DNA of 64,000 bases from Alteromonas sp. KC3. GTDB taxonomy: Bacteria > Pseudomonadota > Gammaproteobacteria > Enterobacterales > Alteromonadaceae. Below, piece by piece: positions 4,698 to 61,026 of the stretch. The position numbers and the translations under genes were made by a program. The stretch lies in assembly GCF_016756315.1 (NCBI RefSeq), contig NZ_AP024235.1, positions 3,286,001-3,350,000 of the forward strand, read 5' to 3'. Position 1 is the first letter of the stretch, and each line of letters opens with the position of its first letter. The notes under the pieces are model-generated. The model was not told the DNA's origin and did not search any database. It saw only the letters and a program-made list of their open reading frames with translations.

Positions 4698-6296
4698 TTA
4701 CACTCCCATTATCTGCGACCAACTCAAACCAAACTTGTGAAGATACTTCTGCAGGCGCGTTGAGTCGTTAGCCTGCACTTTTTTAGTCCGGCTTACGTCA
4801 AACAGCTCTCTACCTGCTGACGCCATGGTTGGGTGCTTGCTGCAAACCTGAAGAACATAGCTAAGCTGATGCGCGTCGAAGCTATCAAGTTGCTCAATTT
4901 CAGCTTTCGAAAAGTACTTTTGCAATATGTTTTCTGAAGAAGTGTTATCAGACGACTGCCACGCACTGTTTAGACGGGCAATTTCTTCGTTCACGTCATC
5001 AACTGAAATTCGTGATGAGTTGGCCAACGTGCAAAGCCGCGTAATTGCTGAGCTCAAATCGCGAAAGTTACCAGACCAAATGGCTCTTGCTGATGCAGCG
5101 AACTGTTCGAAGGTTTCCCTAGCCTCTTTGTTAAACTGTATGCGCTGCCCGGTTTTCTGTTCATACAAACTAACTTCATAGTCGATATTTGCAGGTATAT
5201 CTTCCTTCCGGTCTTTTAGTGCTGGTAGTTCGTAGGTCCACAGGTTAATTCTGGCTAATAAATCCTCTCTAAACTTACCGTTCTCAACTTCTGCTTTAAG
5301 GTTTTTATTGGTACCAGCAATTAGCTGAAAATCACTGCTAACCGTTTGATCGCTCCCTACCGGATGAAACGTTTTATTCTCTATAGCGTGAAGTAACATG
5401 GCCTGTTCTTCTAAGCCCAGTTCACCAATCTCATCGAGAAATAGCATGCCTTGGTTTGCTGTAACCAAATAGCCACTGCGCTCTTTTTGTGCACCAGTGA
5501 ATGCGCCTTTTGTGTGACCAAAGAGCGCGGCCATAGCATTCTCACCTTTGAGCGTTGCACAGTTTACAGAAACGAAATCCCCTTTCAGCATACCCCGCTT
5601 TTTCTTCAGTTTATAAACGCGTGTGGCAAGCTGACTCTTTCCTGCACCTGTTGGCCCAGTTAGCAACATTGGATCGCTGGAGCGAATAGCGACCGTTTCA
5701 ACTTGCGTAATTAAGCGGTTAAATGCTTCGTTTTTGGTTTGAATTCCCCCTTTAAGAAACGCCTTCCCTTCTAGGTGTTCTCGGTCAAAACGAGTGGCGA
5801 GTTGGTCGTACTTAGATAAATCCAAGTCGATAATCTGAATTTTGCCGATGGCCCTATTGCTATTTTTTTTATCCGGCGACGTTTGTATCAACCTTCCAGG
5901 GAAATGCCCGCTCTCCGTCAGCAAAAAGCTGCAAATCTGTACAACGTGCGTACCCGTTGTTATATGAAAAAGATAGTCGTTTTCTTCAGTGTCAAAAGTA
6001 TGCTGCTGGCACCAATCGTAAAGTTTCGAATAAACCTCTTCAAAGTCCCACGGATTGGCAAAGTTCACATTATGCAGCACAACATCTGTTTCGGGCGAAA
6101 CACCTGCTATGTCGCTCGCTACGTCACTGGCCAACTTAGTACTATGATTATCATGTAGCATGTGAAGTTGGTTTACTACCAAATCTTCCTGACTGCACAA
6201 ACTGACATTGGGGCGCCATTTATCCCAGCGATCAACTCGCTTTCCAACATAATCCAACTGAGTGCCAATCAGGCTTACTACGACAGTACTCTTCAC
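4698..6296 (-). CDS. rtcR: RtcR, sigma54-dependent activator of RNA repair genes
   Basis: RtcR carries an N-terminal CARF-type ligand domain and activates the rtc operon with sigma54 RNA polymerase after RNA damage. With a GTG start at 6296 the protein is 532 residues and begins MKSTVVVSLIGTQLDYVGKR, colinear with the family. The open frame also reaches a GTG at 6323, but the predicted promoter puts the transcript start at about 6322, which favours the inner start. Domains: CARF about 1-175; AAA+ with Walker A GPTGAGKS at 214-221, sigma54 contact loop GAFTGA at 264-269 and Walker B LFLDEIG at 285-291; a C-terminal region with a possible DNA-binding helix pair (NSTRLQKYL region). It is divergent from the tRNA-like/slipin/rtcB/rtcA operon, its evident target. 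Confidence 0.95.
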   Translation of the reverse strand: MKSTVVVSLIGTQLDYVGKRVDRWDKWRPNVSLCSQEDLVVNQLHMLHDNHSTKLASDVASDIAGVSPETDVVLHNVNFANPWDFEEVYSKLYDWCQQHTFDTEENDYLFHITTGTHVVQICSFLLTESGHFPGRLIQTSPDKKNSNRAIGKIQIIDLDLSKYDQLATRFDREHLEGKAFLKGGIQTKNEAFNRLITQVETVAIRSSDPMLLTGPTGAGKSQLATRVYKLKKKRGMLKGDFVSVNCATLKGENAMAALFGHTKGAFTGAQKERSGYLVTANQGMLFLDEIGELGLEEQAMLLHAIENKTFHPVGSDQTVSSDFQLIAGTNKNLKAEVENGKFREDLLARINLWTYELPALKDRKEDIPANIDYEVSLYEQKTGQRIQFNKEARETFEQFAASARAIWSGNFRDLSSAITRLCTLANSSRISVDDVNEEIARLNSAWQSSDNTSSENILQKYFSKAEIEQLDSFDAHQLSYVLQVCSKHPTMASAGRELFDVSRTKKVQANDSTRLQKYLHKFGLSWSQIMGV

Positions 6297-6328
6297 AACC
6301 GAATATCCAAATAGATAAATCACTATCC

Positions 6329-6357: not shown

Positions 6358-6447
6358 GTTAAAAAAGCACCTCAAAACAATCAAAATAGAATAAATAAAC
6401 AAACAAAAACAGAAACTTAAATAAAAAATAACTTTTGAAGCAGAGAT

Positions 6448-6462
6448 TGGCACATTGATTGA
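6448..6462 (+). promoter_or_regulatory. Sigma54-type -24/-12 promoter of the RNA repair operon
   Basis: TGGCAC at 6448-6453, five bases, then TTGA at 6459-6462 matches the -24/-12 pattern TGGCAC-N5-TTGC except that the last C is A. It points rightwards and lies about 90 bases before the first tRNA-like unit, downstream of the divergent sigma54 activator rtcR. The intact GG and its spacing support it; the altered -12 base lowers confidence. Confidence 0.6.
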
Positions 6463-6552
6463 AGTACAGAAAGAGTCTGATTAAGCGGTTGTGATTCAAA
6501 AATTCACACTGGTGCGTTGAACTCTGTGACTGCGCATACCTAATCAAACAGC

Positions 6553-6626
6553 GTATTAAGTAGCTCAGTTGGAAGAGCAGCGAATAGACACTCGTCGGTC
6601 ATGGGTTCGACTCCCATCTTAATACT
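6553..6626 (+). tRNA. Degenerate tRNA-like unit 1 of a tandem array
   Basis: A perfect eight-pair acceptor is formed by GTATTAAG (6553-6560) and CTTAATAC (6618-6625), which equals a seven-pair acceptor with an extra G-C as in tRNA-His. TA follows at positions 8-9, then a D arm GCTC/GAGC with AGTTGG, and a perfect T arm ATGGG/CCCAT with loop TTCGACT. The anticodon arm is poor: four pairs (GCGA/TCGT) and an eight-base loop without a normal U33-anticodon. No CCA is encoded. It looks like a tRNA mimic rather than a decoding tRNA. Confidence 0.75.
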
Positions 6627-6697
6627 ATTTAAGTAGCTCAGCTGGATAGAGCAACGGCGTTAAACCGTTGGCGAAGGTTCGAATCCTTCCTTAAATA
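6627..6697 (+). tRNA. Degenerate tRNA-like unit 2 of a tandem array
   Basis: Acceptor ATTTAAG (6627-6633) pairs exactly with CTTAAAT (6690-6696). TA, the D arm GCTC/GAGC and the T arm GAAGG/CCTTC with loop TTCGAAT are all canonical. The anticodon stem AACGG/CCGTT is good, but the loop CGTTAAA has G where U33 is invariant, and there is no base between D and anticodon stems. The loop resembles tRNA-Asn with one T lost. No CCA follows. One base separates it from unit 1, and its 3' end abuts unit 3. Confidence 0.75.
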
Positions 6698-6770
6698 CAG
6701 GTAGCTCAAATTGGTAGAGCATCGAACATTTAATTCGATTGTTGTGGGTTCAAGTCCCACCCTATAAACA
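6697..6770 (+). tRNA. Degenerate tRNA-like unit 3 of a tandem array
   Basis: D arm GCTC/GAGC with ATTGGTA, anticodon stem TCGAA/TTCGA (perfect) and T arm GTGGG/CCCAC with loop TTCAAGT are clear. The loop CATTTAA is that of tRNA-Lys with U33 changed to A. The acceptor is weak: ACAGG (6697-6701) against CCTAT with one mismatch, and a full seven-base 5' strand would have to reuse bases of unit 2. The 3' end reads AACA, not CCA. It cannot be released as a standard tRNA together with unit 2. Confidence 0.7.
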
Positions 6771-6783
6771 CATTGTAAAACAC

Positions 6784-6907
6784 GTTAGTAAGCCGTTTTT
6801 GCCAATGACTGACGAACGCTAATGAGAAACGACTCGCAGCAAGCTGGATGCTCCCTGCTATTCATACTCTAACGTCTTTGTCAGTAAAGCAGTTAACCCT
6901 TACTAAC
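6784..6907 (+). ncRNA. Candidate structured RNA between the tRNA-like array and slipin
   Basis: GTTAGTAAG (6784-6792) and CTTACTAAC (6899-6907) pair perfectly over nine bases and close a 124-base segment. Inside, ACTGACGAA (6808-6816) pairs with TTTGTCAGT (6877-6885) over nine positions with one G-U. A small inner hairpin GCAG/CTGC (6836-6839, 6855-6858) is also possible. There is no T-run, so it is not a simple terminator. It could be a Y-RNA-like molecule, a processing element or a structured leader of slipin. I do not recognise a known family. Confidence 0.5.
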
Positions 6908-6964
6908 ACCACTTAGCTACAAGACGTTTGCCAAAGTGGAGAAAAGAATAAAAGGAAATTAGTG

Positions 6965-8134
6965 ATGTTGAAGAATAATCTAATGAGAAAAACAGTAACC
7001 GTCGCTGAGAATCAAAGAATATTAATGTTCAAGAATCAACAGCTGACTAGTGTCCTGCTGCCAGGAAAGTACAAAATGTGGGACTTTAAAAATGAACTTG
7101 AATTTATCACTTTCGACATCGATGAACTGTATTTCTCTGAAAAGAACGCAGATAGGCTCTTTCGAAACAGGGAAACTTTGCGCGAGCATATCTTGCATTG
7201 GAAATTAGCAAGCAGCGAGGCCGGATTACTGTACGTAAATGATTTGCTGCAAGGCATCGTTGCGCCGGGTGAGCATATATACCTCTGGAAAGATGCTGGC
7301 GAATTAAGACTGGAAACGATTTCGATAGACGACAACCTCGCCGTCGACGAAAAGCTCTTATTCCTAATTAATCGGGCAGGCGCAAACAGCGCTTCAAGAT
7401 TGATAAGAAGCAATCGCACAGTTGCAGCGAAGCCAATTGCTGACGTAGCCGTAGCAAAAGAGCACGTTGGCCTGTTGTATGTGAATGGGAAGTTCATCCA
7501 AAGATTGGAGCCTGGCCAACACGCTTTTTGGCAATTCAATCACACCATTGAGGTTAAGGCATTTGATTGCAAGACTCAGATGCTCGAAATCTCCGGACAG
7601 GAAATTCTGAGTAAAGACAGAGTGAGCCTTAGAATAAACCTGAGTGCAAGCATTAGAGTGCAGAACCCAGAGCTAGCAGCGCGAAGCGTTGATAAGGTTG
7701 ATGACTATGTCTACAAAACCTTGCAGCTGGCACTTAGAGAAGCCGTCGGAACTAAATCGTTAGACGATATCCTGTTAGATAAGTTGTACGTTAACGAAAC
7801 GGTAAAAGAGTTGGTATCGGAACAACTGAAAGAAATAGGTATATCGCTAATAAATGTAGGTGTGAAGGACATTATTTTGCCCGGCGAAATGAAAGCCATC
7901 CTGAATCAGGTGGTAGAAGCACAGAAAGCCGCAGAAGCTAATGTTATTAAGAGACGAGAAGAAACCTCAGCTACCAGAAGCTTGCACAATACAGCCAAAG
8001 TGATGGAAAACAACCCTACTTTGATGCGGTTGAAAGAGCTAGAAGCGCTTGAAAAGGTGTCAGATAAAATTGGCAACCTGACGGTGTATGGCGGCCTAGA
8101 AGGCCTGATGAATGGCGTAGTGAAAATAGCGTAG
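6965..8134 (+). CDS. Slipin-type SPFH/band 7 protein of the rtc operon
   Basis: 389 residues from the ATG at 6965, with AAGGA at 6952-6956; a GTG three bases earlier and Met8 are alternatives. The protein has two slipin N-terminal beta repeats (EAGLLYVNDLLQGIVAPGEH and HVGLLYVNGKFIQRLEPGQH) before an SPFH domain at about 200-340 (SKDRVSLRINLSASIRVQNP; GVKDIILPGEMKAILNQVVE). A charged helical tail follows. Slipins encoded with rtcBA are known in other bacteria. There is no clear long transmembrane helix, so it probably attaches peripherally or assembles as an oligomer. Its role in RNA repair is unknown. rtcB follows after 116 bases that contain a hairpin. Confidence 0.85.
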   Translation: MLKNNLMRKTVTVAENQRILMFKNQQLTSVLLPGKYKMWDFKNELEFITFDIDELYFSEKNADRLFRNRETLREHILHWKLASSEAGLLYVNDLLQGIVAPGEHIYLWKDAGELRLETISIDDNLAVDEKLLFLINRAGANSASRLIRSNRTVAAKPIADVAVAKEHVGLLYVNGKFIQRLEPGQHAFWQFNHTIEVKAFDCKTQMLEISGQEILSKDRVSLRINLSASIRVQNPELAARSVDKVDDYVYKTLQLALREAVGTKSLDDILLDKLYVNETVKELVSEQLKEIGISLINVGVKDIILPGEMKAILNQVVEAQKAAEANVIKRREETSATRSLHNTAKVMENNPTLMRLKELEALEKVSDKIGNLTVYGGLEGLMNGVVKIA

Positions 8135-8250: not shown

Positions 8251-9477
8251 ATGTGTAGTAACTACAACGTTATTGAAAGCAAAGGAAAAGCAACCATAAA
8301 AGCATGGACAAATGGCGTTCCTTTTGAAGACAAAGCTAAAGAGCAGTTGAACAACATTGCTGGAATGTCACTAGTTCACTCTCATATAGCCGTGATGCCA
8401 GATGTACATATGGGTAAAGGCGCTACAATTGGAAGTGTTATTCCGTCTGTAGACGCTGTTATTCCTGCTGCTGTAGGTGTGGACATTGGCTGTGGAATGG
8501 TGGCGACCAAAACTACATTATCTGCCAGCCAACTTCCGGACAACCTATCTGGTATAAGAAGCGCTTTTGAAGCGGCTGTTCCTCATGGAAGAAGTGCGAG
8601 AGCCAGAGGTTCCAGAGACAAAGGGGCTTGGCATAATATACCCGATGTTGTGGCGGCAGAATGGAAGAAGCTTGAAGCAAGATTTGAGCGTATTTGTGAA
8701 AAGCACCCTGCGATCAAAAAGAGTAATCACGTAAATCATTTAGGCACCATGGGCACTGGAAACCACTTTCTTGAGCTGTGCTTAGATGAAAACAATGCCG
8801 TTTGGATAATGCTGCATTCAGGTAGTCGCGGCGTGGGTAATCGCATTGGTACCTATTTTATTGAGCTGGCTAAAAAGGAAATGGAGCGCCACCAAATCAA
8901 CTTGCCAGACAAAGACTTGGCGTATCTTGAAGAAGGCAGTGAATACTTTGATGATTACGTTGAAGCAGTAGAATGGGCACAGGACTATGCAGCCAAGAAC
9001 CGCGAAATTATGATGATTAATGCCATTGCAGCATTAAGAAAACAAATTCCAACGCCATTTTCAACTGCTGAGCTTGCGGTGAATTGCCACCACAATTACA
9101 TCTCGCGAGAGCGACATTTTGGAAAAGACTGCTTTGTTACCCGTAAAGGTGCAGTGCGCGCCGAGAAGGGTGAGATGGGCATCATCCCGGGAAGTATGGG
9201 AGCGCGTTCGTTCATTGTACGAGGGCTTGGCAACCCAGAAAGCTTTAACAGCTGTAGTCATGGCGCAGGCCGTGTAATGTCTAGAACTCAGGCAAAGAAG
9301 GTATACAACATAAAAGACCAAATTGAAGCCACACAAGGTGTAGAGTGTCGTAAGGATGAATCGGTAATTGATGAAATTCCGCATGCTTACAAAGACATAG
9401 ATAAGGTGATGGAAGCTCAAAAAGATTTGGTCGAGGTGGTGTACACCCTAAAGCAAGTAGTATGCGTTAAGGGATAA
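8251..9477 (+). CDS. rtcB: RtcB, 3'-phosphate RNA ligase
   Basis: RtcB joins RNA 3'-phosphate or 2',3'-cyclic phosphate ends to 5'-OH ends using GTP and Mn2+. The protein is 408 residues, equal to the E. coli enzyme. VGVDIGCGM holds the metal-binding Asp78 and Cys81, GTGNHFLE the next ligand His172, and SCSHGAGRVMSR the guanylated His337. A strong AAGGAG lies seven bases before the ATG. rtcA follows after three bases, so the two are translationally coupled. It is the canonical RtcB of this locus, under RtcR control; a distinct paralogue (rtcB2) lies downstream on the other strand. Confidence 0.97.
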   Translation: MCSNYNVIESKGKATIKAWTNGVPFEDKAKEQLNNIAGMSLVHSHIAVMPDVHMGKGATIGSVIPSVDAVIPAAVGVDIGCGMVATKTTLSASQLPDNLSGIRSAFEAAVPHGRSARARGSRDKGAWHNIPDVVAAEWKKLEARFERICEKHPAIKKSNHVNHLGTMGTGNHFLELCLDENNAVWIMLHSGSRGVGNRIGTYFIELAKKEMERHQINLPDKDLAYLEEGSEYFDDYVEAVEWAQDYAAKNREIMMINAIAALRKQIPTPFSTAELAVNCHHNYISRERHFGKDCFVTRKGAVRAEKGEMGIIPGSMGARSFIVRGLGNPESFNSCSHGAGRVMSRTQAKKVYNIKDQIEATQGVECRKDESVIDEIPHAYKDIDKVMEAQKDLVEVVYTLKQVVCVKG

Positions 9478-9480
9478 ACA

Positions 9481-10524
9481 ATGACGTACTTAGTAATTGA
9501 TGGCGCACAAGGTGAAGGAGGCGGACAAGTGCTACGGACAGCGCTGACCCTATCGATCATCACAAAGCGGCCAATTGAAATTGTTAACATTCGGGCCAAC
9601 CGCAAAAAACCTGGCTTATTGCGACAGCATTTAACAGCTGTGATGGCTGCACAAGCAATATGTAACGCAACTACAGAGGGTGTTGAACTAGGTGCTCAGC
9701 ATATACGCTTTACTCCCGGTGTGGTGCAACCTGGAGCGTATCGTTTTGCTATTGGCACTGCAGGTAGCACAGTGTTGGTATGCCAAACCATTTTGCCTGT
9801 TTTGGCGCTGGCCAATGGAGCTTCACGAGTGACCTTTGAGGGCGGTACTCATAACGGAATGTCGCCATCGTTGTGCTTCTTGGAGCATTCTTATTTACCG
9901 CTTTTGCAACACATGGGCATTTATTGCAAGGTTAAGCGCTCATCGCTCGGCTTCTACCCTGCTGGCGGAGGCAAGTGGGAAATAGATATTGCTCCATCCG
10001 TAAGTTTAAGCCAATTAAGGTTGAATGAGGCTGCCAGACAATTTGCTGCAAACCAGAAAAACTGTCAGCTACATGCCTTGGTAAGCCAGCTTCCACTTTC
10101 CATAGGCGAGCGAGAAGTGAAAACTGCCAAAGCTATATTAAACTGGCATGATGCCGCAAGCTTAGTAACTAATGTTGACTCGCGCGGCCCTGGTAATAGC
10201 TTTCAATTGCGCCTTTCCAGCAATACACACACAAGCGTTTTTGAAGTGGTGGGTGAATTTGGAGTATCGGCAGAACGCGTAGCAAAACGTTGCGCTGGCC
10301 GTGTAAAAAATTTTGTTCGCTCAAACGCGGCCATAGAAGAGCAGCTGGCTGACCAGCTACTTATTCCTATGGTGCTAGCAGGTGGCGGTAGTTTTACCAC
10401 CACCAAGCCAACGCCTCACACCACTACGAACATAAGCGTTATAAAACAGTTTGTTGATATCAATGTAAGCGCAAAGCAACATCACGACGACGAATCATGT
10501 TGGACAATTTCTATTGGGCGTTAG
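9481..10524 (+). CDS. rtcA: RtcA, RNA 3'-terminal phosphate cyclase
   Basis: RtcA converts RNA 3'-phosphate (or 2'-phosphate) ends to 2',3'-cyclic phosphate with ATP through an adenylated histidine, preparing ends for RtcB. It is 347 residues, about the family length. GEGGGQVLRTAL at 11-22 and the HNGMSPS stretch are family signatures. The adenylated histidine is His313 in TKPTPHTTT. It is the last gene of the RtcR-controlled operon, coupled to rtcB. It converges on prfH with only 34 bases between, where a long hairpin probably stops transcription from both sides. Confidence 0.96.
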   Translation: MTYLVIDGAQGEGGGQVLRTALTLSIITKRPIEIVNIRANRKKPGLLRQHLTAVMAAQAICNATTEGVELGAQHIRFTPGVVQPGAYRFAIGTAGSTVLVCQTILPVLALANGASRVTFEGGTHNGMSPSLCFLEHSYLPLLQHMGIYCKVKRSSLGFYPAGGGKWEIDIAPSVSLSQLRLNEAARQFAANQKNCQLHALVSQLPLSIGEREVKTAKAILNWHDAASLVTNVDSRGPGNSFQLRLSSNTHTSVFEVVGEFGVSAERVAKRCAGRVKNFVRSNAAIEEQLADQLLIPMVLAGGGSFTTTKPTPHTTTNISVIKQFVDINVSAKQHHDDESCWTISIGR

Positions 10525-10544: not shown

Positions 10545-10578
10545 TTGCCCTAGCGACTTTATGCAGTCACTAGGGCAA
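10545..10578. terminator. Hairpin between convergent rtcA and prfH
   Basis: TTGCCCTAG (10545-10553) pairs with CTAGGGCAA (10570-10578). After one mismatch GACT pairs with AGTC, giving about 13 pairs. It overlaps the last codons of prfH. There is no clean T-run, so this is a probable but unusual bidirectional terminator. Confidence 0.45.
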
Positions 10579-11188
10579 ACTTTTCTCCTTTAAAGGTTCT
10601 TACAGGGTTTCCCCTTTCAAGTTCCCAGTGTTGCTGCCTACGCACTTTTTCTTGCAAGCTCATTTGTGATTGTTTCTGCATTTCAAGCTTCTGAAACAAC
10701 AACGCTTTCGCTAGCTTTTTGTTTGCGTGTTGGCTGCGCTCACTTTCAACACGTACTGAAATACCAGATTCAGTGTGGGTAGCCCTTATCGCCGAATCGG
10801 TTGTATTTACGTGCTGACCACCAGCACCCGATGCACGACACGCCTGATAGGTGATGTGGTCGGTCATTTCCGTTTCGTTAACTTCAAACACCTGCCCACT
10901 GAAAAACCAGTTCTTGCGTTTGTGCTTTGGTCTAAAACGACTTTCACACACCCACAACATTGGCCCTTGCCACGCAAGGGCTAATTGTTTAGCAGTATGC
11001 GTTTCCGCAGCATCTAGCTTTAACAGTACCGACTTAAAACAACCTGGCGCATTGGCTTCCACAGCTTCAATCACACTACAGCTAACTTTATTTGCATTGC
11101 ATTCTTTGGTAATTAGCTTTGTTGCTAAACCAATAGCTTTACAGCACTCAATAGGCCCTTGCCCTGAAGATAATTGCAATAAGATCAT
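10559..11188 (-). CDS. prfH: PrfH, release-factor-like rescue protein for damaged ribosomes
   Basis: PrfH is a class I release factor homologue that, by the published model of RtcB2-PrfH, frees ribosomes whose 16S decoding centre has been cut so that RtcB2 can reseal the rRNA. With ATG at 11188 it has 209 residues and starts [12 protein letters not shown], as in the family. A TTG nine bases earlier also opens the frame. The peptidyl-hydrolase motif GGQ is at 123-125 within [14 protein letters not shown]. The codon-recognition domain of full release factors is absent, and the C-terminus is basic. The start overlaps the rtcB2 stop as ATGA, so translation is coupled. Confidence 0.93.
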
Positions 11189-12366
11189 GATGCACAATCT
11201 CCATTGGTTTTAAAGGTCAAAACGGGGCGTAGCTTTGCGACAACCTCTATTAACCCTGCATCAACCATATCGCTAATAACGGTTTCGCATTTTTTGTAGG
11301 CTTGAGGTGCTTCATCGTACAACAACTCTTTGTTGCCACAAATTACACGACTCCCTAACGGCGTGCGATACAAATCATCGCGTTTGTATTTGTGCCCAAG
11401 CCTGCCGTGACACTCACCACGTTTCCATTTTCGACCCGCACCGTGAGCAAGCGAATACAGGCTAACCGCCATGTTTGCATTGGCACTCGTAAGTGGTTTT
11501 ACAAGGTAACTGTAGTCACCGCGTGAGCCCGGGATCATCACGTAGCCTTGGTCACTCGGCGTTGCCCCTTTACGGTGTAAGTAGCCTTGTATGCCATCAA
11601 TTTCTTTGGGTGAAACAAGGTTATGATTTACATCTAGCGTGCATGTTCCTTTTGCTCGAATAGCCGCTAGAAAGCGCATCGCTATAAGCTCGCGATTTAG
11701 TTCAGCCCAACGCACAGCCTCATCGTGTTTGGCCATGTAATCGGTAAAGTCATCGCTATCATTACCCGTATCGCTAACATTCAAACCATTGTGATTATGC
11801 GTAGTGACATGATTAACCAAAATCGACTGCCCTAACCCTCTAGAGCCCGAGTGCACCAAAAGCTGCAAGTGCGTTTTGTTAAGCCCTAACTCATCTAGCG
11901 CGGCGTGGTCATACACTTCTTCAATTGCCTGAAACTCGGCAAAGTGATTGCCACCACCAATAGTACCTAACGCATGATCATACGCATTGATAGCTATACC
12001 TTTTTCACGTTTTCTAACATTAACCGTATCTGCCCAGCTTTCGTCTAGTGGCAATTCAACGTGGCTAAATCGCTTAGCCATTTTATCCAAATTGACCTTG
12101 GATACTTTCGCTGTTGTTTGCCAAAGCGACATACCGCAGCCAATATCGTTACCTACCAAAGCAGGGTAAATTTTGTTTGTCGTGAAAAATGCTGCCCCAA
12201 TGGGATAGCCTCTTCCAGGGTGCAAATCAGGCATACCAGCAACGCGCTGCATACCGACAAGTTCTGACGTTTTAATTAATTGTTGTATTGCTAACCCTTC
12301 AATCCACGTTTGTGCAGACGCAATAAGGCTAACGTTTTCAGTAATTTTTTGGACGGATTTGCCCAT
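11185..12366 (-). CDS. rtcB2: RtcB2, RNA ligase paired with PrfH
   Basis: 393 residues. It is an RtcB-family ligase clearly different from the canonical RtcB in this window. VGNDIGCGM carries the metal ligands Asp74 and Cys77, GGGNHFAEF holds His141, and [11 protein letters not shown] holds the guanylated His308. RtcB2 in operon with prfH is known to repair 16S rRNA cut at the decoding centre, for instance by colicin E3-type nucleases. AAAGGA lies nine bases before the ATG, but it lies within segments that can base-pair with the leader. The operon has its own sigma70 promoter and a leader ORF, so it is not under RtcR. Confidence 0.94.
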
Positions 12367-60276: not shown

Positions 60277-60824
60277 AAATAAATATCTTCAAATGCGCGC
60301 AGCCTGACTCTCGTTTGTGGTATTAATACTAGCAAAATTCAATATGTAAAACCTAGTTTTGCAACTATTTGGTTGTGCGGCGGACTCAATACGTACACAG
60401 AATAAACAGTTTGAGCCTCGAAAAATTCACTACGTTGATAACGTTGGTTACTCACTAAGCGAACGAACCCACAATTTCGCTTTTTGGCACTTCTTCACTG
60501 GCAACATACTACTTATTCATCTAAGATCTCAGACGAGTTCGACGCTAGGTAATATGTATTTTCCACTATTAAAGGTGTCTTGAAACTCACCAAGGATAAG
60601 GAATTCCACTCTCAACAGGTAATAATCATTATTTGGGCGTAGGCTTGAATATTGAGCTTATCAAATATGCGTGTATAATTGCTGACCAACTGGTCAAGAA
60701 AATGAAAGTTTCTTTTCAACAGTAATAATCAATAACGCAAAAATAAGTAGTAGGCTTGTTAAGTGATCCGCTTCACTGAACAACTCGTTTGATATACCCT
60801 GTTGCGTTTAATACAACAACAATG
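60277..60824. other. Gene-free stretch between ygfB and 6S RNA
   Basis: I see no credible coding gene; a 74-codon plus-strand frame here is of poor composition. zapA, which often precedes 6S RNA in this group, is not present. A sigma70-type promoter lies at 60652-60679, and inverted repeats such as GACCA/TGGTC (60684-60695) lie downstream of it. Confidence 0.6.
60652..60679 (+). promoter_or_regulatory. Sigma70-type promoter upstream of 6S RNA
   Basis: TTGAGC (60652-60657) and TATAAT (60674-60679) are 16 bases apart. The start point would be about 140 bases before the mature 6S RNA, comparable to the distal promoter of ssrS in E. coli. Confidence 0.5.
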
Positions 60825-61003
60825 TTTCCTGGGATGTTTGCTAGTTCATTCATGTCCCTAGCCGATGCTTTAAACCAAGGAAGTTGAAACGATTGCTATT
60901 GTGCAGGCTCGACTCGTATCGAGAAGCCTACGGCAGTTGTGATGCTTCCGCCCTGAACTTTTCGGTTCACGGGCGAAACATGGACAGCGGCATTCTGGGA
61001 AGC
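60825..61003 (+). ncRNA. ssrS: 6S RNA
   Basis: The segment follows E. coli 6S RNA in order: TTCCTGGGATGTTTGC at the 5' end, TCCCTAGCCGATGCTT, then CTCGACTCGTATCGAGAAGC in the apical stem, then CCTGAACTTTTCGGTTCA and GACAGCGGCATTCTGGGA at the 3' end. The ends can pair (TTCC with GGGAA; GGGATG with CATTCT), giving the long rod with a central bubble that mimics an open promoter and binds sigma70 RNA polymerase. It sits beside ygfB-pepP-ubiH-ubiI as usual. Ends are estimated. The ribokinase start codon is only about 25 bases away. Confidence 0.9.
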
Positions 61004-61026
61004 GCCCTCTTTCGACGGAAGAAGAA

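Follow-up and report, generated by a model that had tools for sequence, protein, structure and literature searches.

Burroughs and Aravind reportedly described, in Nucleic Acids Research in 2016, SPFH/Band-7 modules in RNA repair that carry a cognate 'novel tRNA-like molecule', and alongside these modules TROVE proteins with Y RNAs; the pairing of a tRNA-like RNA with Band-7 is believed to have been noted there first. By that account, the kind of tRNA-like RNA that lies beside Band-7 in RtcB systems is already known. An excerpt of another article cites the paper for MVP homologs and operon-sharing noncoding RNAs implicated in RNA repair (PMC13404743). Here, a stretch of 64,000 nucleotides from Alteromonas sp. 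KC3 (NZ_AP024235.1, positions 3,286,001 to 3,350,000; the window) was analyzed, in which three tRNA-like units precede the genes for a slipin (Band-7) protein, the RNA ligase RtcB and the cyclase RtcA.

Related arrangements have been described in other bacteria. According to sections of two papers, YrlA of Salmonella, an RNA that works with Rsr/Ro60, mimics the D, T and acceptor arms of tRNA and belongs to an RtcR-controlled operon (PMC8394870, PMC7790460). In Anabaena, tRNA genes, rtcB and a slipin gene are freed from one repressor, TrcR, and translation stress lifts this repression, as stated in part of the published account (PMC10272220). In the window, the following features were found in and around the operon:

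4698..6323, minus strand: RtcR, a sigma54 activator with CARF, AAA and HTH domains (Pfam RtcR, 267 bits; NCBIfam equivalog NF038308 over its cut-off)
6447..6462, plus strand: putative sigma54 site of the -24/-12 type, TTGGCACATTGATTGA, the sole exact match
6475..6552, plus strand: element A, a predicted structured RNA (model R1, 83.5 bits, with the window in the training set)
6553..6626, plus strand: tRNA-like unit 1, perfect 7-bp acceptor stem, 8-nt anticodon loop, no CCA
6627..6698, plus strand: tRNA-like unit 2, 7-bp acceptor stem, loop CGTTAAA with G33, no CCA
6692..6769, plus strand: tRNA-like unit 3 (6695-6769 as called by ARAGORN), five of seven acceptor pairs, loop CATTTAA with A33, no CCA
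6783..6908, plus strand: element C, a predicted structured RNA of 126 nt (model R2, 115.6 bits, with the window in the training set)
6965..8134, plus strand: slipin / Band-7 (SPFH) protein (Pfam Band_7), with 51 related named loci
8251..9477, plus strand: RtcB RNA ligase (Pfam RtcB, 425.9 bits)
9481..10524, plus strand: RtcA RNA 3'-phosphate cyclase (Pfam RTC; TIGR03399 over its cut-off)

An earlier reading of the letters alone (the sequence-only reading) had described a tandem array of three degenerate tRNA-like RNAs at this place. Its coordinates and description were borne out: ARAGORN called exactly three units between the sigma54 site and slipin, labelled 'agac' (8-nt loop), 'Stop' (tta) and 'Lys' (ttt), and the Rfam tRNA covariance model scored units 1, 2 and 3 at 47.3, 56.0 and 51.8 bits (gathering score 29). 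Among the 70 matches of a genome-wide Rfam tRNA scan, the three units score near the bottom of the list. The array lies, as had been claimed, between the sigma54-like site at 6447-6462 and slipin-rtcB-rtcA, genes recognized by Pfam and, in the case of rtcA, also by NCBIfam. Parsing confirmed D and T arms and TA at positions 8-9 in all three units, with a four-pair D stem and a 5-bp T stem; acceptor pairs numbered 7, 7 and 5 of 7. Units 1 and 2 abut head to tail, and unit 3 overlaps the 3' end of unit 2. Since the post-discriminator bases are TAT, CAG and CAC, encoded CCA is absent from all three units, although CCA could still be added enzymatically. The claim that encoded CCA and U33 in a 7-nt loop are both missing also stood: each was found in 0 of 3 units, versus 36 of 36 distinct ordinary tRNA sequences (ARAGORN on 50 stretches of the same genome). 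Folded as single sequences, the units gave z-scores of -0.8 to -1.8, which are uninformative. The leader of the window encodes tRNA-body mimics without decoding features, which supports the proposal of built-in tRNA mimics.

The most informative single result is the contrast between the body of the units and the anticodon loop. In 13 pairs of related loci (13 of 18 pairs, one pair per group, with sites treated as independent), the unit bodies differed at 40 of 1193 positions (3.4%), and the anticodon loops at 32 of 156 (20.5%; Fisher p 3e-13). In comparison, the stretch upstream of the promoter region differed at 299 of 1560 positions (19.2%), which is indistinguishable from the loops (p 0.67). 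Anticodon stems differed at 14 of 220 positions, the region of element C at 166 of 1897 and four-fold sites of slipin at 623 of 2075 (0.300). The loop limits were set by the author's parser, and rows without TA or TT at positions 8-9 were dropped. The tRNA-like body is held by selection and the anticodon loop is free; the units are not decaying. The word 'degenerate' therefore fits the anticodon loop and the missing CCA, but not the conserved body (40/1193). Since the body is kept while the loop drifts, whatever binds the units seems to read the elbow and acceptor rather than the anticodon; the test indicates which end of the mimic matters. An arms-race diversification of the loops was not supported, because they change about as fast as upstream DNA (0.205 and 0.192) and more slowly than four-fold sites (0.300; p 0.011).

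Relatives were parsed in 56 leaders, comprising 51 named slipin loci, the window and L006-L009 (labels with L denote loci, those with G genomes). Together, these leaders held 112 T arms, 78 of them in full units; this number includes false parses without TA or TT at 8-9 (L067-1, L080-1 and L091-1) and two CCA-ending tRNAs of L008. Anticodon loops had 7 nt in 53 of the full units and 6, 8 or 9 nt in 25. Of the 7-nt loops, 22 have T at position 33, 12 each have G or A, and 7 have C. The relatives have thus often, but not always, lost U33 and CCA. Kinship of the arrays with YrlA was rejected: the Rfam YrlA model RF02553 (gathering score 69) reached at best 41.4 bits, at the unit junctions, versus 46.6 bits for ordinary tandem tRNAs. 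Junctions of the latter (G000:C1:1434543-1434795) match the YrlA model at up to this score, as though YrlA were a circularly permuted tRNA. Since ordinary tandem tRNAs match equally, the signal says only that YrlA resembles a permuted tRNA.

The association of the tRNA-like part with its neighbors was examined in a class sample of 369 genomes, which are drafts, so that some absences may be gaps. RtcR over its family cut-off was present in 13 genomes, slipin in 22 and both in 8; 14 of the 22 slipin genomes had no RtcR over cut-off. In 20 slipin loci, from which the window and its near relative G236 were excluded, a Rfam tRNA at gathering score was found at 16, and a T arm within 800 bases upstream of slipin likewise at 16, versus 1.2 expected from shuffles. 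Combined, a tRNA match or T arm preceded slipin in 19 of 20 loci; the sole exception, L195, is a partial slipin gene. The nearest tRNA was more than 1 kb away in G190 and about 0.8-1 kb from the expected start in G401. The T-arm scan assumed a 1500-base flank and missed L189 and L193, both found by Rfam; a Rfam tRNA was also present at the G330 locus (L177). Of the 20 loci, 14 belong to genomes in which no RtcR exceeds the cut-off; a tRNA match or T arm is present at 13 of the 14. In comparison, a tRNA within 1.5 kb was found at only 1 of 12 RtcR loci other than that of the window, namely L036 (G236).

Loci in which rtcB or rtcBA lies between RtcR and slipin (L160, L166 and L168; rtcB and rtcA identified by eye from their first residues) carry the T arms in the gap before slipin and not beside rtcR, L168 retaining one T arm only. 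ARAGORN called no tRNA in these three gaps, and the T arms there come from the author's scan. No unit was found in the rtcR-rtcB gap of L161 (no slipin seen) or L159 (a slipin remnant only). Taken together, the tRNA-like part is linked to the slipin gene, also where RtcR was not found.

Neither this link nor the flanking RNAs A and C had been part of the sequence-only reading, which stood for the array itself. Element A consists of an outer stem, a GTGATTC..TCAC hairpin and a GGTGCG..CGTATNCC hairpin, and begins near the expected transcript start. Element C is closed by GTTAGTAAG/CTTACTAAC, has 91.4% of its cells paired and a folding z-score of -4.24. For C, 122 double-change cells were counted versus 39.1 (standard deviation 5.7) in shuffled and at most 30 in slid alignments, and for A 14 versus 3.6 shuffled and 0-3 slid; both structures were drawn from the same alignments and are thereby favored over the slid versions. 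The pairs with double changes and the pair types of A were unexceptional, being reached by 43 and 199 of 500 shuffles. Covariation support for A is thus weaker than for C, but positive; the units and C are conserved as RNA. An attenuator role of C was set aside: it ends 56 nt before the ATG with no long U run behind it, and so resembles neither a terminator nor a mask over the ribosome site.

The models R1 (for A, built from 19 of 24 aligned leaders) and R2 (for C, from 17 of 23) were searched against 67 sources, with rough E-values. R1 matched 40 of them (E < 1e-6, including its 19 training sequences), and R2 matched 38 on the plus strand (E < 0.001, including its 17 training sequences); R2 matches on the minus strand at four places were each accompanied by a better plus-strand match. 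Far from the training group, A was matched in L160 (E 1.4e-7), L089 (2.4e-5) and a Burkholderia leader (1.8e-5). When R1 was run jointly on 11 further sources, there was no match in E. coli, Citrobacter, L006, L007, L085, L088 and L168, matches in L202 and L166 were at chance level only, and L086 gave a weak one at the right place (E 0.047). Resemblance to A in sources without a real R1 match was judged by eye only. In the class sample, R1 matched five genomes, three of them at slipin (the window's own, G236 and G256); the matches in G309 and G318 (E 5.8e-4 and 2.6e-5) lie in other DNA and were taken as chance. No Rfam match for A or C was obtained, either at gathering score on the window or at E up to 0.5 on nine loci, and both look like RNA families outside Rfam 15.

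The operon has the layout of an RtcR-controlled rtcBA operon: rtcR is divergent from slipin-rtcB-rtcA, and a sigma54 site, rtcB and rtcA are present, so that control by RtcR is predicted. A one-mismatch search for the sigma54 site gave 3 matches versus 1.8 by chance; since this is near the chance count, support for the site comes from its position and from the named relatives, 38 of which (L047-L084), out of 51, have a similar site between -345 and -532. Slipin probably starts at ATG 6965, the frame being open also from GTG 6962. PADLOC, run on eight locus proteins, returned matches for RtcR only. Directly behind rtcA, on the minus strand (window 10559-12366), lie prfH (release factor H, TIGR03072) and a second rtcB (TIGR03073); two RtcB repair systems thus adjoin on opposite strands. 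A 6S RNA gene was found at window 60823-61005 (92.3 bits).

The slipin protein is closest to Alteromonas proteins among the named slipins. Its AlphaFold model (pLDDT 84.5, pTM 0.60) predicts three five-strand repeats, an SPFH domain and a long helix. The nearest protein by sequence is stomatin (E 4e-34), and so it is by fold with the whole model (Foldseek; stomatin E 1e-14, then MVP E 2.8e-11). In VIA, one MVP match spans the repeats and SPFH domain, and the other MVP matches listed cover the SPFH half only. The shoulder domain and long helix are predicted as in MVP, but are common to all SPFH families. Vault membership by fold is not claimed: despite the whole-model match, the N-terminal repeats alone match nothing significantly (best MVP match E 0.27). 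Part of a published account describes SPFH relatives that form rings and domes (PMC12624060). In the Pseudoalteromonas luteoviolacea group (L075-L082, L084), slipin has about 540 residues, some 150 more than in the window. Within the genus the slipin of this operon is patchy: a strong match occurred only in G000, G006 and G046 of 59 genomes, including that of the window, while the others held general SPFH relatives or weak matches only. A phage origin was rejected, as none of 50,697 phage records matched slipin at E 1e-10; at E 1e-30, 9 of 72,556 plasmid records matched, all typed as non-mobilizable and several of megabase size.

Variants of the leader were found in relatives. Many leaders combine a full unit with a second unit in which a T arm and a GG(N)AAAG-like stretch are present and no D stem can be seen. 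This D-stem-less unit, in the form of the stretch, a hairpin and the T arm, recurs in L085-L089, L007-L009, L160 and L166, and may be a reduced elbow mimic. In G341 (L202 850-4330), RtcB and slipin lie amid 13 ARAGORN tRNAs, 12 of them with CCA. RtcB comes first, followed by three tRNAs that have both U33 and CCA; then come a stretch that resembles A (by eye), a unit lacking CCA and a T-arm half, and behind these slipin with nine more CCA tRNAs after it. The whole has the look of an emergency set of tRNAs within an operon for RNA repair. Two CCA-ending tRNAs also stand 5' of the block in L008. In G397 (L158 5098-6810), RtcR adjoins a TROVE (Ro60-like) gene and a YrlA-like permuted tRNA of 37.9 bits, below the family cut-off of 69; a second RtcR of this genome faces rtcBA, with an apparent broken slipin remnant behind.

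In E. coli, slipin is preceded by a 311-bp leader in which a sigma54-like site was recognized by eye; the single T arm of this leader has four of the five pairs. The leader was matched in 1624 of 5426 complete genomes, strain W included, and leader and slipin together covered at least 80% of the query in 1621 of 5426. It lies with slipin between yjbD and lysC (L212 4480-6946; L215 3793-7209; L216 2169-5585) and carried no annotation among the 40 matches listed. Behind slipin, strains WAT and W carry genes for a nucleotidyltransferase and a zeta toxin; the STEC639 record gives the former as RlaP ('RNA repair pathway DNA polymerase beta family'). Neither RtcR nor RtcB is annotated beside slipin and the nucleotidyltransferase there; in Citrobacter, rtcR is adjacent. 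Since an unannotated T-arm leader precedes slipin in E. coli, strain W included, a relative of the system is open to bench study.

The mimics may best be explained as RNA partners of the slipin scaffold, much as YrlA is of Ro60; this tentative reading is given a probability of roughly 0.43. Broken tRNAs with cyclic-phosphate ends would activate RtcR, and sigma54 polymerase would then transcribe A, the mimics, C, slipin, rtcB and rtcA. The mimics would fold into the elbow and acceptor shape of tRNA and, with A and C, act as RNA cofactors of an oligomeric Band-7 protein. The resulting ribonucleoprotein (RNP) might gather or present tRNA-shaped substrates or tRNA-binding enzymes near RtcB and RtcA. 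The acceptor/D/T body would be the working part and the anticodon end dispensable, as is thought for YrlA with Ro60. This reading is suggested by the conserved bodies and drifting loops, by the lack of U33 and CCA in the window units as compared with 36 of 36 ordinary tRNAs, and by the tRNA or T arm that precedes slipin at 19 of its 20 loci, versus 1 of 12 RtcR loci with a tRNA within 1.5 kb. It is also favored because T arms precede slipin in L160, L166 and L168, C covaries strongly, the RtcR of G397 adjoins TROVE/Ro and a YrlA-like RNA instead, and SPFH relatives assemble. More specifically, but doubtfully, A, the mimics and C may together be a multi-part RNA scaffold that forms, with a soluble Band-7 protein, an RNP cage for tRNA repair. 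Such a cage would be the counterpart of Ro60-Y RNA, found in operons of this kind too, and might be a remote analogue of the vault, a proposal of equally doubtful standing.

Several points weigh against a partnership with slipin. SPFH proteins are usually membrane scaffolds, not RNA binders. Passages on the deletion of the SPFH gene of the Pseudomonas aeruginosa rtc locus (paFlo8) give no detectable effect on biofilm and say nothing of tRNA damage (PMC13086221). Contact between mimics and slipin is a prediction from sequence. RtcB stood beside slipin in only 7 of 16 further stretches (L198, L199, L201-L204, L206), all from genomes without RtcR over cut-off; in the other nine, there was no RtcB in the stretch examined, some of which stop at a contig end. 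Of the 78 full units from relatives and window, 17 do carry CCA, nine of these cases being one unit of the P. luteoviolacea group and two the CCA-ending tRNAs of L008. Element A was found by R1, under strict filters, at only 3 of 22 sampled slipin genomes, and A and C were detected mainly in marine relatives, more narrowly than the tRNA-like part. In the leaders of E. coli and Citrobacter there is only a single T arm, and neither ARAGORN nor Rfam detects a tRNA.

Among the rivals, ordered as follows, decoys come first, though they are judged unlikely. Made in quantity on induction, the mimics would soak up enzymes that attack or hold tRNAs, such as nucleases and modification enzymes; induction with the repair genes would be expected, and the conserved tRNA body and up to three units per leader agree with this. 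In excerpts of the same Salmonella study, such a proposal is made for YrlA, yet YrlA itself was not cut in Salmonella (PMC7790460). Anticodon nucleases, moreover, act at the unconstrained loop, so that only decoys for body-binding enzymes fit, and the slipin linkage as well as A and C are left unexplained. The narrower suggestion of the sequence-only reading, baits for tRNA-cutting toxins, lost ground for toxins that cut at the anticodon, because the loop changes as fast as upstream DNA and the body is kept. Its further suggestion was that the units may serve as RtcB substrates. A little less probable still than decoys is that the units punctuate processing: RNase P and 3' nucleases would cut at them and thereby release A, C and the slipin-rtcBA mRNA from a single leader transcript. 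These enzymes read the acceptor and T arm and not the anticodon, the units sit between A and C, and units 1 and 2 abut head to tail; a single unit would suffice, however, yet up to three are kept, and the D-stem-less second unit with its T arm, which recurs in other lineages, is a poor RNase P substrate.

The remaining two rivals are disfavored. It is improbable that the units are worn-out spare tRNAs, the leader having begun as a backup array that replaced cut tRNAs and having here lost the decoding function. Such an origin would agree with the 13 tRNAs around slipin in G341 (12 with CCA), the two CCA-ending tRNAs of L008 and U33 in 22 of 53 units with 7-nt loops. In part of its description, the Anabaena system, too, places an array of tRNAs under common regulation with rtcB and slipin (PMC10272220). 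The simple form of decay is refuted by the strong purifying selection on the bodies. CCA-ending tRNAs in related operons, which the sequence-only reading had taken, if intact and charged, as counting against itself, do occur in G341 and L008, but beside CCA-less units. In G341 they coexist with a CCA-less unit behind the A-like stretch (by eye), so that the two types look like separate parts. Least probable of all is a ligand or feedback signal for RtcR, in which the units would be cut to 5' halves with cyclic phosphate, bind the CARF domain and keep the operon on. The suggestion of a sensor ligand was weakened by the 14 of 22 slipin genomes without RtcR over cut-off, 13 of 14 of which have a tRNA or T arm, and by a tRNA within 1.5 kb at only 1 of 12 RtcR loci beyond that of the window. 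The loop that would be the target is unconstrained, and in L160, L166 and L168 the T arms lie away from the rtcR-adjacent gap.

The locus shows that bacteria keep tRNA-shaped RNAs, apparently barred from translation, that are tied to a scaffold-type RNA-repair gene. Among the titles, abstract openings and passages listed in a literature search, with most subscription journals outside it, there was no later paper on these RNAs, A, C or the E. coli leader. The slipin of the window has its best match in stomatin and no vault RNA match in Rfam was found, which sets the locus apart from the vault (MVP and vault RNA). Unlike in the window, the Anabaena trn tRNA operon lies on a megaplasmid, with rtcB and slipin on the chromosome, as given in a section of that account (PMC10272220). 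YrlA has a long stem formed from its two ends, which probably replaces the anticodon arm, and Ro60 as its partner, while the units of the window keep the linear order of a tRNA, with a Band-7 gene as the putative partner; no TROVE was found among the eight locus proteins scanned. The closest likeness is to the noncoding RNA reported in 2016, which resembles a tRNA and reportedly adjoins a Band-7 gene in RtcB operons. To this, the window adds three units with the elements A and C, an evolutionary test of body versus loop, and a linkage to slipin that holds also where RtcR was not found.
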